Below, in pieces: positions 1-51,098 of a DNA stretch of 64,000 nucleotides. Below the pieces are notes generated by a model. That model had not been told where the DNA came from. It was given only the letters and a program-made list of their open reading frames with translations, and searched no databases. The DNA comes from Brachyspira pilosicoli P43/6/78 (GTDB lineage: Bacteria > Spirochaetota > Brachyspiria > Brachyspirales > Brachyspiraceae): positions 1,054,001 to 1,118,000 of the forward strand of contig NC_019908.1 in NCBI RefSeq assembly GCF_000325665.1, in the 5' to 3' direction. The position numbers and the translations under genes are program-made. Position 1 is the stretch's first letter. Each line of letters starts with the position of its first letter.

Positions 1-399
1 GGTGATTATATGAACCACTGGCTTGAAATGGGAGATAAATTAGGCGATAAAGCTCCTAGAATCTTCTATGTAAACTGGTTTAGAAAAGATGCTGACGGTA
101 AATGGTTATGGCCTGGATTTGGTGATAACTCAAGAGTATTAAAATGGATGTGTGAAAGAGTTGAAGGTAAAATTGATGCTGTTGACACTCCTATAGGTAA
201 AATGCCTAAAGACGGCGATTTAGACCTTAAAGGTTTAGATATTCCTGAAGCTGATTTCAAAGAGCTTATGAGAGTAGATGTTGAAGCTTGGAAAGATCAA
301 GCTAATCAGATTGAAGCTCATTATGCTAAATTTGGTTCAAGACTTCCAGCTAGACTTAAAAAACAATTAGAAGAATTAAGAGCTAGATTAAGCAAATAA
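1..399 (+). CDS. pckG: Phosphoenolpyruvate carboxykinase (GTP), C-terminal part
   Basis: This is the 3' end of a gene that begins before the window; the frame is open from base 1, so the in-frame ATG at 10 is internal. The 132 visible residues match the C-terminus of GTP-dependent PEP carboxykinase, with the family segment PRIFYVNWFRKDADGKWLWP and then GFGDNSRVLKWM. The enzyme interconverts oxaloacetate and PEP with GTP/GDP in the cytoplasm. In a fermentative anaerobe it may run toward oxaloacetate, which is inference. A strong hairpin terminator follows the stop codon. The identification rests on this conserved block; the catalytic N-terminal part is not visible. Confidence 0.9.
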   Translation, partial: GDYMNHWLEMGDKLGDKAPRIFYVNWFRKDADGKWLWPGFGDNSRVLKWMCERVEGKIDAVDTPIGKMPKDGDLDLKGLDIPEADFKELMRVDVEAWKDQANQIEAHYAKFGSRLPARLKKQLEELRARLSK

Positions 400-29553: not shown

Positions 29554-29581
29554 AAAGTGTATTCATATTTGAATACACTTT
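29554..29581. terminator. Bidirectional terminator between comEC and the FMN-binding protein gene
   Basis: AAAGTGTATTCA (29554-29565) pairs perfectly with TGAATACACTTT (29570-29581) around a 4-base loop, with A-rich sequence on the left and T-rich on the right. The genes on either side converge. Confidence 0.88.
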
Positions 29582-46836: not shown

Positions 46837-47836
46837 ATGATTAGTGTAATTATACCAGTATACAATGTAGAAAAATATTTGAGAGATTGTTTGAATAGTG
46901 TAATAGGTCAAACATATAAAGATTTAGAAATAATATGTATTAATGATGGTTCTACAGATAACTCACTTTCTATACTTGAAGAATATGCAAAAATAGATAA
47001 AAGGATAACAATAATAAATAAAAAAAATAGCTGGAGTTTCCGCTGCTAGAAATGACGGAATAGAAAAATCAGCTGGTGAATACTTATTTTGTTTAGATAG
47101 CGATGATTATATAGATAAAGATTTTTTGGAAGTATTTTATAATAATGCCAAACAAAACAACAGTGATTTGGTTATACTAAGTAATTTTTGGGGACTTGAT
47201 AAAAGAGCTACAAACAAATATCATTCAGCTCTTCCTACTTGTTCTATGTTTATAAAAACAAGTATTCTTAAAAATAATAATAATTTAAGATATCCTCTAA
47301 ATGTTCAGCCTGGAGAAGACGGTATATTCTCTCATAAACTTTTAATGTATGCAAAAAATATAAGTTATGAATATAATACTCATTATCATTATATTAAAAG
47401 AGAAGGACAAGATTCATCAAAAGCAGTAAAAGAACCAAAAATATTATTAAACGCTATAAAGCAGTGGTTTGATATCTTAGATGAATTTTATACTAAGTAT
47501 AATTTTTGGCAAACTAAATCATTATCTTTTGCTAAGTTTGTAGAGCAAGAGGCTTTCTTGGCATTTAGAACAAAAAACTTTACTCAAGATGATGAGAGAA
47601 AAGTTTTTGATATGATGAAAAATATATTAAAAAAAATAATGATTAATATTAATAAAGATGATTATCAATATTTTTCTAAAGAGTTTATATGTTTAATAGA
47701 ATCAAATACAATTAAAGAATACTACTCTATTATCAAATACAAATACAACTACATAAGATTTAGATTTTTCAAGCAAAATGTTTCAATTAGGTATAAAGAA
47801 AACAGATATAAATTATACAAAAATGATAATATTTAA
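46837..47836 (+). pseudogene. GT2-family glycosyltransferase, frameshifted at an A8 run
   Basis: The first frame (46837-47049) is a typical GT-A start: MISVIIPVYNVEKYLRDCLN, QTYKDLEIICINDGSTDNS. It leaves frame at the A8 run (47020-47027). Removing one A gives IINKKIAGVSAARNDGIEKS and EYLFCLDSDDYID with the metal-binding DxD, and reading continues to the stop at 47836. The whole would be about 332 residues. Such enzymes transfer sugars to surface polysaccharide or lipid; the substrate is unknown. An A8 run is long enough for slippage, so phase variation is possible, as is a sequencing error. Confidence 0.85.
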
Positions 47837-47910: not shown

Positions 47911-48579
47911 ATGAATACATTTGCATTAACAAAACTATCTTATGGAATGTATATTTTAACTACAATGGACGGTGATAAGCCAGTAGGCTGTACTATAAAC
48001 ACCTCTACACAAATAACATCAACTCCAACTACAATTATGATTAGTGTAAACAAAAATAATTATACCAATGAATGCATTAAAAAAAGCGGTAAATTTGCTT
48101 TATCAGTTCTTTCAGAAAAAAGCGACCCTGCTTTAATAGGCGGATTTGGTTTTAGAAGTTCAAGAGATGCTAATAAATTTGAAAATGTTAATTATGAGAT
48201 GAAAGAAGGTTTGCCTGTTATAAAAGATACTAATGCTTATTTTGTATGTAAAGTTGTAAATAGTTTCGATGTATTTACTCATACTTTATTTATAGGTGAA
48301 TTGGTAGATGCTGACATATTTGATAATAATACTAACTCTATGACTTATTCTTATTATCATACAGTAATAAAAGGAAAAACTCCTCCTAACGCTTCTACTG
48401 CAAATGCATACGAAAACAAAGAAGAAAAAAAAGAAGAAGCAGAAAAACCTAAAGCAGTTTATAGATGTAAAACTTGCGGATTTGAATATAAAGGAAGTGT
48501 TCCATTTGAAGAGCTTCCTAGCGATTGGAAATGCCCTATATGCGGAGAGCCTAAAAGCAATTTTGAAAAGGTAGAATAA
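47911..48579 (+). CDS. Flavin reductase-rubredoxin fusion (high-molecular-weight rubredoxin)
   Basis: This 222-residue protein has an N-terminal flavin-reductase-like FMN-binding domain (about 1-155; [40 protein letters not shown]) and a C-terminal rubredoxin (about 183-222) with iron ligands C186-x-x-C189 and C208-P-I-C211. A charged E/K-rich linker joins them. The same arrangement is known as Hrb in Moorella, where it passes electrons from NADH to flavodiiron proteins that reduce NO or O2. A role in oxygen or NO defence in this anaerobe is inferred; no flavodiiron gene is in the window. Confidence 0.92.
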
Positions 48580-48582
48580 TTG

Positions 48583-48649
48583 TTATAGTATTAAAACATT
48601 GAAATTTATTTTTATAGTATTATAATATCCAAACATTATAATACTATAA
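48583..48649 (+). promoter_or_regulatory. znu promoter with a 15-bp perfect inverted repeat (candidate metal operator)
   Basis: TTGAAA (48599-48604) and TATAAT (48621-48626) are 16 bases apart. TTATAGTATTATAAT (48612-48626) covers the -10 box and pairs exactly with ATTATAATACTATAA (48635-48649). A third half site, TTATAGTATTA (48583-48593), lies 29 bases further upstream. No T run follows, so it is not a terminator. A zinc-responsive repressor such as a Zur/Fur homologue is the likely binder, by inference from the genes it controls. Confidence 0.7.
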
Positions 48650-48661
48650 GGATAAATACAG

Positions 48662-49516
48662 ATGAAAAATGTTTTTTATTTATTACTAATATTACTTTCT
48701 TTAATCTCTTGTAACAATAATAATAATCAAAACACAACTGACAAACTTCAAGTATATGCAAGTATATATCCTATTTATGATTTCGCTAAAAAAATTGGCG
48801 GAGAGAAAATAGATATTTATAATATAACTTCAGCAGGTTCAGAGCCTCATGACTTTGAGCTTACATCAAAAGATATGGCTAATTTAAGCAAGGCTAATCT
48901 ATTTATATATAATGGTGCTTCAATGGAGCATTGGGCAGACACTGTTAAAGATACAATAAAAGATTTAAAATATTTAGAGGCTTCTTCAAATATCAATAAC
49001 GAAGAATTAGACCCTCATTTTTGGCTTTCACCTAAAAAAGCAAAAGTTCAAATGGAAAATATAAAAAATGTACTTGCAGAATTAGACAGTAAAAACGCTG
49101 ATTATTATAATTCTAATTACAATTTATATGCTGCTAAATTAGATGAGCTTGATAAGAGTTTTAGAGATAATTTACAAAACATAAAAAATACTAATTTGGT
49201 TGTAACTCACCCTGCATTCGGACACTTTTGTAAAGAATATAATCTTAATCAAGTTGCAATAGCAAGAGATGAAGCTGACGCTAAAGCCATGGCTCAAACA
49301 ATTAATTTCATAAAAAACAATAATATTAAAACTATATTTTATGAAGACTTCTCAAGTTCTAAGCTTGTAGATTCTATTGCAAAAGAAACAGGAGTAAAAG
49401 TGAGTGCATTAAACCCTATAGAGTCTTTAAGTGAAGAATATATTAAATCTGGAGAAGACTATTTCTCTATAATGCAGAAGAATCTAGAAGCTATAACAAA
49501 TGGTCTTAATAATTAA
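48662..49516 (+). CDS. znuA: Zinc ABC transporter substrate-binding lipoprotein
   Basis: This 284-residue cluster A-I solute-binding protein (lipobox ISCN) captures a divalent metal outside the membrane. Likely ligands are His63 (SEPHDFEL), His119 (DPHFWLSP) and His183 or His188 (THPAFGHFC), plus an acidic residue near the end (FYEDFSSS). The His-rich loop of many ZnuA proteins is missing. Zinc is favoured over manganese by the NPIESLS ending and overall look, but manganese cannot be excluded. It heads an operon with ATPase and permease genes, spaced by 17 and 23 bases. Confidence 0.9.
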   Translation: MKNVFYLLLILLSLISCNNNNNQNTTDKLQVYASIYPIYDFAKKIGGEKIDIYNITSAGSEPHDFELTSKDMANLSKANLFIYNGASMEHWADTVKDTIKDLKYLEASSNINNEELDPHFWLSPKKAKVQMENIKNVLAELDSKNADYYNSNYNLYAAKLDELDKSFRDNLQNIKNTNLVVTHPAFGHFCKEYNLNQVAIARDEADAKAMAQTINFIKNNNIKTIFYEDFSSSKLVDSIAKETGVKVSALNPIESLSEEYIKSGEDYFSIMQKNLEAITNGLNN

Positions 49517-49533: not shown

Positions 49534-50271
49534 ATGGAAAATATAATAAGTTTTAAGAATGTGCATTTCGGATACACTCAAGAGGATATATTAAAGTGCA
49601 TAAGTTTTGATATAAATAAAGGAGACTTTGTTTCTATTATAGGTTCTAATGGAGCAGGAAAAAGCACTATATTAAAACTTATTTTAGGTGAAATTAATCA
49701 ATACAGAGGCGAAATAAAACTATACGGTGAAGATATTAAGAAATTTAAGAATTGGCAGCAGATTGGATATTTAGAACAGAATGCATACTACAAAATATTA
49801 AATTTCCCTGCAACTGTTTATGAGATAGTAATGTCTAATATGTTTGCAGATATTGGTTTATTTAAGTTTCCAAATAAAAAGCATAAAGAAAAAGTATTTG
49901 AAGCATTAAAACTTTTAGGTATGTATGATTATAAAGATAGACTTATATCAAAACTTTCAGGCGGACAGATACAGAGAGTTTTTTTGGCAAGAACTTTAGT
50001 ACAAAACCCTAATATATTAATATTAGATGAGCCCACTAATGGTGTTGATATTGAAACTATTAATTTTTTATATGATTTGCTTCAAACTCTAAATAAAAAT
50101 AAAAAAATAACTATTGTAATGGTTACACATGATATTGAGAGAATGTCAAAAATCTCAAATAGAGTGTTCTGTTTTGAAAACGGCACATTAGTAGAACTTG
50201 ATAAAAATCAAATAAACATGGAATTATCACATAAGCACAAGCATCCAGATGGAAGCAGTTGTTCTTGTTAA
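49534..50271 (+). CDS. znuC: Zinc ABC transporter ATP-binding protein
   Basis: This 245-residue ABC ATPase energises metal import. It has Walker A GSNGAGKST (about 37-45), signature LSGGQIQRVFLARTL, Walker B LILDEPTNGVD and switch VTHD. The C-terminus is unusual: it ends in SHKHKHPDGSSCSC, a short tail rich in His and Cys that could bind zinc and sense or buffer it. The ATG at 49534 follows TAAGGTTC. It lies between the binding-protein and permease genes. Confidence 0.93.
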   Translation: MENIISFKNVHFGYTQEDILKCISFDINKGDFVSIIGSNGAGKSTILKLILGEINQYRGEIKLYGEDIKKFKNWQQIGYLEQNAYYKILNFPATVYEIVMSNMFADIGLFKFPNKKHKEKVFEALKLLGMYDYKDRLISKLSGGQIQRVFLARTLVQNPNILILDEPTNGVDIETINFLYDLLQTLNKNKKITIVMVTHDIERMSKISNRVFCFENGTLVELDKNQINMELSHKHKHPDGSSCSC

Positions 50272-50294: not shown

Positions 50295-51098
50295 ATGGAA
50301 ATATTTCAATATGAGTTTATGCGTAGGGCTTTTTCGGTGGGAGTACTTTTAGCTATTATAATACCTTCTATTGGGGTTGTAGTTGTATTAAAAAGGCTTT
50401 CTATGATAGGAGATGCTATATCACATACTTCTCTTGCGGGAGTAACTTTTGGGCTTGTGTTTAATATTAATCCAATACTTGCTTCTATGATATTTTGTGT
50501 TTTATCTGCTTTATCTATAGAGTTTATAAGAAAAAAAATTGCAAGATATGGTGAGATGTCTATAGCGATAATTATGTCTTTTGCTATTGGTCTTGCTGGG
50601 TTGTTATCTGGTTTCGTTTCTAATAATGCTAATTTTAATAGTTTTTTATTTGGAAGCATTGTAGCTATTAGTGATTTTGAATTAAAGCTAGTCGTAATTA
50701 TAAGTATTATTTCTATATTGATATTTATATTTTTATACAAAGAGATTTTTTATATAACATTCAATGAAAGGCTTGCAAAACTCTCTGGTGTTCCTGTAAA
50801 CAGGATAAACTTTATTTTTACAATACTTACAGCAATAGTAGTTTCTATATCTGCGAGGGCTGTTGGTGCTTTGATTGTATCATCTATGATGGTAGTTCCT
50901 GTTGCTTGTTCTATGCAGCTTGCTAATAGCTATAAAAAAACTATTATTTATGCTGTGTTATTTAATTTAATTTTTACTATTTTAGGAATATTTATTTCAT
51001 ATTATCAAGGATTAAAACCGGGCTCTACTATAGTTTTAATAAGTGTGATAAGTTTTGTATTAATTGCGATAATAAAATTTTTCTTAAACAAAAAATAA
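50295..51098 (+). CDS. znuB: Zinc ABC transporter permease
   Basis: This 267-residue ABC-3 family permease has about eight membrane segments. Landmarks are FMRRAFSVGVLLAIIIPSIG, the DA-H-T-S-L segment (GDAISHTSLAGVTFGLVFNI), YKEIFYITFNERLAKLSGVP and VGALIVSSMMVVPVACSMQL. It forms the channel of the metal importer with ZnuA and ZnuC. It is the last gene of the operon. The intergenic stretch after it has a distant CCGCACG/CGTGCGG pair but no clear terminator. Confidence 0.92.
   Translation: MEIFQYEFMRRAFSVGVLLAIIIPSIGVVVVLKRLSMIGDAISHTSLAGVTFGLVFNINPILASMIFCVLSALSIEFIRKKIARYGEMSIAIIMSFAIGLAGLLSGFVSNNANFNSFLFGSIVAISDFELKLVVIISIISILIFIFLYKEIFYITFNERLAKLSGVPVNRINFIFTILTAIVVSISARAVGALIVSSMMVVPVACSMQLANSYKKTIIYAVLFNLIFTILGIFISYYQGLKPGSTIVLISVISFVLIAIIKFFLNKK

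Follow-up and report, generated by a model that had tools for sequence, protein, structure and literature searches.

Members of Brachyspira are spirochaetes that inhabit the gut of pigs, birds and humans. The stretch of DNA analysed here (the window, 64,000 nucleotides from B. pilosicoli P43/6/78) carries a znuACB-like operon on the + strand, with genes for a znuA-like substrate-binding lipoprotein (48662-49516; PF01297, 3e-76), a znuC-like ABC ATPase (49534-50271; PF00005) and a znuB-like permease of the ABC-3 type (50295-51098; PF00950). The operon in the window contains no regulator gene. The ZnuA of the window is 94-96% identical to that of two named B. pilosicoli strains and, as judged from its sequence, is without a His-rich loop. 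A second ZnuA relative is present in most other Brachyspira and is His-rich in the four that were read; in G001, G023 and all five B. pilosicoli-group genomes it had no match. Upstream, on the same strand, lies a flavin reductase/rubredoxin gene (47911-48579), which ends 32 bp 5' of the palindrome described below. Two adjacent + strand frames further upstream (46837-47049 and 47126-47836) look by eye like fragments of one glycosyltransferase.

The -35 box TTGAAA (48599-48604, aligned across znu promoters) and the -10 box TATAAT (48621-48626) are separated by 16 bp and make a good promoter, with transcription predicted from the sequence to start at about 48633. AAGGAT (48648-48653, + strand) is the likely ribosome-binding site. 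TATAAT lies 16 or 17 bp 3' of a -35-like hexamer in 24 of 25 znu promoters.

The palindrome TTATAGTATTATAAT-8-ATTATAATACTATAA (48612-48649) sits on this -10. Its left arm (48612-48626, 15 bp) includes the -10 box, the inferred transcript start falls in the spacer ATCCAAAC (48627-48634, 8 nt), and the right arm (48635-48649) lies in the 5' leader with an operator-like core. A sequence-only reading had described this exact 15-bp palindrome and a third copy of its half site 29 bases upstream, and both are as described: the 11-mer TTATAGTATTA is found at 48583-48593, 29 bp from the left arm measured start to start. With both strands counted, there are three copies of it within 67 bp and two more elsewhere in the window. 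If two G-T (G-U) pairs are allowed, a hairpin of 23 pairs can be drawn from 48604 to 48657, covering the ribosome-binding site.

Perfect inverted repeats of at least 13 bp with a spacer of 3-14 nt were searched for in the window, and the znu repeat was the sole case; 20 Markov-1 copies of the window, with the same spacers, yielded 23 repeats of 11-13 bp but nothing above 13 bp. The second-longest perfect inverted repeat of the window (29554-29581) has 12 bp and a 4-nt loop; this loop differs in G016, where an inversion is doubtful. Among 92 other promoters of the form TTGnA-15..18-TATAAT, the top pairing score was 10/15, vs 14-15 at znu. This sample of 634 kb consisted of the window, 200 kb each of G000 and G009, and 170 kb homologous to the window, so that the same promoters were partly counted again.

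Within the window the exact 15-mer is confined to the two arms, one per strand. A genome-wide search for it, as the sequence-only reading had proposed, yielded no regulon: among the + strand matches listed in the 2.56-Mb genome, the only exact place was znu, and counts with up to two mismatches (172/179) were only modestly above the reversed control (152/129). A regulon defined by the 15-mer was accordingly rejected.

The dyad O1 and a motif of Brachyspira

A different dyad, O1 (TGTTATAGTATTAAAACA, 18 bp, 48581-48598, + strand), abuts the -35 box and includes the upstream copy of TTATAGTATTA. A matrix was built from 23 chosen sites outside znu, which themselves score 17.8-27.6 bits. With this matrix O1 scored 18.8 bits and ranked first of 63,983 window positions. 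The left arm with its flank (O2, 48610-48627) is a weak operator-like site of 6.7 bits (rank 5 in the window), and the right-arm site (O3, 48634-48651) scored -5.5 bits (rank 193). A site of 13.6 bits lies at 46888-46905, within a frame named glycosyltransferase-like by eye. TGTTA-N6-TAAAACA or a near version precedes the -35 in most of the 25 aligned znu promoters. O1 reached at least 8.3 bits in 21 of the 25 and was absent in four; its scores in genomes beyond the B. pilosicoli group (8.3-14.6 bits) were under the range of the training sites. O1 thus combines a high matrix score at a promoter with conservation in relatives.

O1 belongs to a motif, TGTTAGA-N4-TCTAACA, that is present in 26/26 Brachyspira genomes. 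A four-genome search with the znu-promoter dyad returned the znu site in each genome and one extra site in G000, before a copZ-like HMA gene. Upstream of the copZ-like gene, an 18-bp dyad TGTTA...AACA lies 3' of TATAAT in 24 of 25 genomes (in G003 loosely; G019 was left out). A wider and a tighter motif pattern were drawn after the znu and copZ sites had been seen, so their specificity has to be judged by the control and the remaining genes. With the tighter pattern TGTTAKANWRNTVWAACA, 185 strand-hits were obtained in the 26 genomes vs 8 for the reversed control, each palindromic place being counted twice. Among the matches listed for the wider pattern, near-exact sites stand before copA, a BFD ferredoxin gene and DUF3793 in G000 and before a DUF1858/DUF438/hemerythrin gene in G009; matches with two mismatches were more numerous in the reversed control than for the pattern. 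DUF3793 in G000 has a znu-like layout, with one site 5' of the -35 and a second adjoining the start codon.

Forty stretches were taken from the listed matches to the tighter pattern, and ten proteins were assigned by Pfam. Further copies of the genes named above recur in these stretches, and new among the neighbours are a nitroreductase, two methyltransferases, a glyoxalase, a pyridine-nucleotide oxidoreductase and an HMA protein whose FeoB-associated match is sub-threshold. Of the 40, at least 7 are intragenic or face no clear gene. In the 200-kb sample of G000, three places reached at least 12 bits (the DUF3793 pair and one intragenic place). The corresponding sample of G009 held two, one of 12.9 bits lying 14 bp before a flavodoxin gene and one of 21.6 bits without a clear gene. 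By Pfam, the neighbours of the motif therefore include copA, HMA (copZ-like), BFD, DUF3793, DUF1858/DUF438/hemerythrin, nitroreductase, methyltransferase, glyoxalase and flavodoxin genes. Coevolution of the znu and copZ operators in the B. pilosicoli group was also considered and was given up, since TGTTAGA is retained at copA and DUF3793 in that group.

A lineage-specific metal/redox operator thus probably exists in Brachyspira, with its best site at O1 and not at the palindrome. The proposal of a lineage-specific metal operator made by the sequence-only reading is upheld in kind, as the motif is common to znu, copA and copZ-like genes, but not in place, and its remark that the sequence departs from the Bacillus Zur box holds. 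A literature search for the motif letters gave only unrelated work among the first 12 of 1,966 matches, and among the matches listed from the open-licence literature none described a metal regulon of Brachyspira.

The palindrome in other genomes

ZnuA was found in 26/26 genomes, and the promoter was readable in 25 (the G003 locus ends within the gene). The core GTATTATAAT-N2..12-ATTATAATAC occurred in 5/26 genomes (G000, G012, G016, G002 and G020), at one place each and always in the znuA promoter, with zero matches for the reversed control; a looser core matched in 24/26 genomes with some excess over its control. Promoters were then scored by 15 pairs outward from the -10 against shuffled leaders, leaving out G001, in which no -35/-10 pair was found. 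Ten of 24 were palindromic at p<=0.005 (the five of the B. pilosicoli group, G002, G020, G018, G009 and G024) and 14 were not; 14 or 15 of 15 pairs formed in all five B. pilosicoli-group genomes. The ten palindromes do not share one sequence: the arms differ by clade (TTATAGTATTATAAT, TTATTAAAGTATTATAAT, AATTATTATATATAAT) and the spacers measure 8, 6 and 4 nt (6 with the inner pair open). A tree of 1,620 DNA columns, which start inside znuA and run downstream, places G009, the B. alvinipulli group (G018, G020, G002) and the B. pilosicoli group in separate supported clades. Recurrence at one promoter in three clades may mean that a palindrome is selected for. The upstream flavin reductase/rubredoxin gene is replaced by a divergent lipoprotein-like gene in B. 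alvinipulli (G002), G009 and G015.

The B. pilosicoli-group arms hold the 14-bp core TTATAGTATTATAA of a complete operator, TGTTATAGTATTATAACA, which precedes a nitroreductase-type gene in G008, G010 and G015. An auxiliary role is therefore possible in that group, where the arms may act as weak sites beside O1. The arms of the B. alvinipulli-type and G009 palindromes misfit the operator motif.

The spacer is ATCCAAAC or ATCCGAAC in G000 and G016 and GTTTCGAT in G012, G011 and G013. Apart from one change, GTTTCGAT equals ATCCAAAC read on the opposite strand, so that the spacers differ at 1/8 positions after inversion and at 6/8 without it; the repeats are otherwise equal. Across the five genomes of the group, three of which are 91-95% identical to the window (aligned blocks of at least 800 bp), 6/8 spacer columns vary, compared with 1/30 in the arms and 1/36 before the left arm. 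The arms are conserved no better than the promoter just 5' of them. The inversion counts as a single event that three related genomes share. G009 has ATTA in its left arm where G024 has CTCG, and all three changes complete the pairing (from 12 to 15/15). The nearest relative of G009 in the znu tree is G022 and not G024, so this clustered change may involve recombination. Repeats of at least 8 bp in the window were compared with three relatives. Twelve comparisons had a changed loop, of which two were clear inversions, both at the znu palindrome, and one 4-nt loop was doubtful; loop inversion as a general feature was rejected on these counts.

Homogenization of the arms and complete inversion of the spacer are among the outcomes of template switching between the arms of an inverted repeat that are reported in PMC8604942, and such switching is also treated in PMC8794818. 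The cases that these sources set out concern yeast coding genes and RNA genes, whereas here the repeat belongs to a bacterial promoter and one of its arms contains the -10. The palindrome would be better read as a template-switching repeat than as the main operator. Dyad symmetry in a promoter can then arise by a mutation process and does not at once denote an operator.

Candidate regulators and competing explanations

The Fur family has exactly one match over the cut-off in 24/26 genomes; a further match in G023 and the sole match in G015 are sub-threshold. The Fur protein of G000 scored 100.6 bits for PerR (cut-off 180) and 22.7 for Zur (cut-off 167) in NCBIfam, where no model was over its cut-off. 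The Fur-family search of the 26 genomes and the scoring of the G000 protein turned up no Zur, and the G000 gene is PerR-like. The perR promoter (L021 1300-2000) has its own conserved block, ACTAAATAAGATTAATTATTAATT and variants, in most genomes compared. This block differs from O1 and from the palindrome arms, and a PerR box was rejected as their identity. The perR -10 carries a 17-bp palindrome, TTAGTATATTATACTAA, in three of the five B. pilosicoli-group genomes. One gene of the DtxR family was found in 25/26 genomes, and that of G000 is most like MntR. Its helix-turn-helix region is nearly identical in the 22 of 25 proteins that were aligned, so clade-specific palindromes are hard to explain as an MntR-like operator. 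The PerR-like and MntR-like loci that were fetched contain two places of at least 10 bits, which tie neither gene to the motif: one lies inside perR of G018, and the other, a motif site of 21.6 bits in G001 (L131 146-163), is more than 1.3 kb from the MntR-like gene.

Three known systems resemble parts of this arrangement. Zur operators of Bacillus and E. coli are likewise dyads at zinc-uptake promoters, and the E. coli half site TGTTATA resembles O1, but Zur boxes have a centre spacing of 1 vs 4 in the Brachyspira motif. The CopR/CopY copper regulons of lactic acid bacteria place the same mix of copA, copZ, nitroreductase and glyoxalase genes under one operator; their cop box, TACANNTGTA, is unlike TGTTAGA-N4-TCTAACA. 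Another spirochaete, Treponema, has an operator of TroR (DtxR family, troABCDR) that is likewise an 18-bp dyad and belongs to a metal ABC transporter promoter, but the T. denticola operator, ATTTTGATATATCAAAAT as given by an oligonucleotide in PMC2628430, matches by eye neither O1 nor the arms, and the znu operon of the window, unlike troABCDR, holds no regulator gene.

The palindrome could instead be the main operator, each arm (14-bp quasi-dyad TTATARTAYTATAA) binding one dimer over the -10 and start with O1 as a third site. Its placement over -10/+1, the identity of the arm core with the centre of the operator before the nitroreductase-type gene, the three copies of TTATAGTATTA in 67 bp (two others elsewhere in the window) and the single change that in G011 and G013 gives a right arm TGTTATAATACTATAAGG of 8.0 bits all speak for this. 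We nonetheless consider it rather unlikely, given the 6.7 and -5.5 bits of O2 and O3 against 17.8-27.6 for training sites, the off-motif arms of the B. alvinipulli-type and G009 palindromes, and spacers of 8, 6 and 4-6 nt. A supercoiling-dependent switch, in which the AT-rich repeat is extruded as a cruciform or hairpin and occludes the -10, would account for the strong single-strand fold (DNA z -6.1) and for pairing kept although arm sequences differ between clades; with just 10/24 promoters palindromic, such a switch is improbable.

A hairpin in the RNA leader, or a terminator of the upstream gene, is less probable again, despite an RNA z of -4.4 and G-U pairs that could extend the stem over the ribosome-binding site. 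The -10 lies in the left arm, so a transcript from the znu promoter should lack that arm; no T-run follows 3' of the palindrome, and in B. alvinipulli the palindrome is present with the upstream gene divergent. Both forms were rejected on these grounds, and an Rfam search of 401 bases gave two matches, both far under the gathering score. Chance in an AT-rich promoter is very improbable. Base composition and the perfect 13-17 bp repeats elsewhere in the sampled sequence would allow it, but it has to be set against the pairing in 5/5 B. pilosicoli-group genomes, the Markov copies, the 92 other promoters, and a core search that led to the znu place alone in each of five genomes.

The explanation that we favour, at a probability of roughly 0.55, is that two features overlap here: O1, an operator under one metal/redox regulator, and a template-switched palindrome on the -10. 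O1, abutting the -35, would be one site of the Brachyspira operator TGTTAGA-N4-TCTAACA. A single regulator would read it, also controlling copper export, a copper chaperone-like protein and iron-sulfur/redox genes, and when bound at O1 it would gate znu transcription. The motif, its positions and its neighbouring genes are observed; from them we infer one regulator, its binding, the sign of its effect and its ligand. The palindrome would be an inverted repeat able to form a hairpin. Its left arm would be kept constant by the -10, and replication with template switching from arm to arm would rewrite the partner arm and spacer. This mechanism is proposed for three observations: the spacer inversion, the clustered arm-completing change, and arms that still pair although their sequences change from clade to clade. 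The arms of the B. pilosicoli group also contain the operator core and may act there as weak auxiliary sites next to O1.

More tentatively, one regulator may run a Brachyspira-wide metal and redox regulon through this motif, linking zinc import, copper export and iron-sparing genes, with the operator cores at znu in the B. pilosicoli group having arisen by hairpin-templated mutation. The znu promoter would then itself generate additional operator sites and invert the spacer that is transcribed first. Several neighbour genes of the motif are conserved, which offers a direct handle for finding the regulator. The copZ-like and copA promoters also have in common ATACCC or a variant of it, placed close to the -35 or 5' of it, an element that we take to be reminiscent of a CsoR half site, and a second copper regulator may act at these two promoters.
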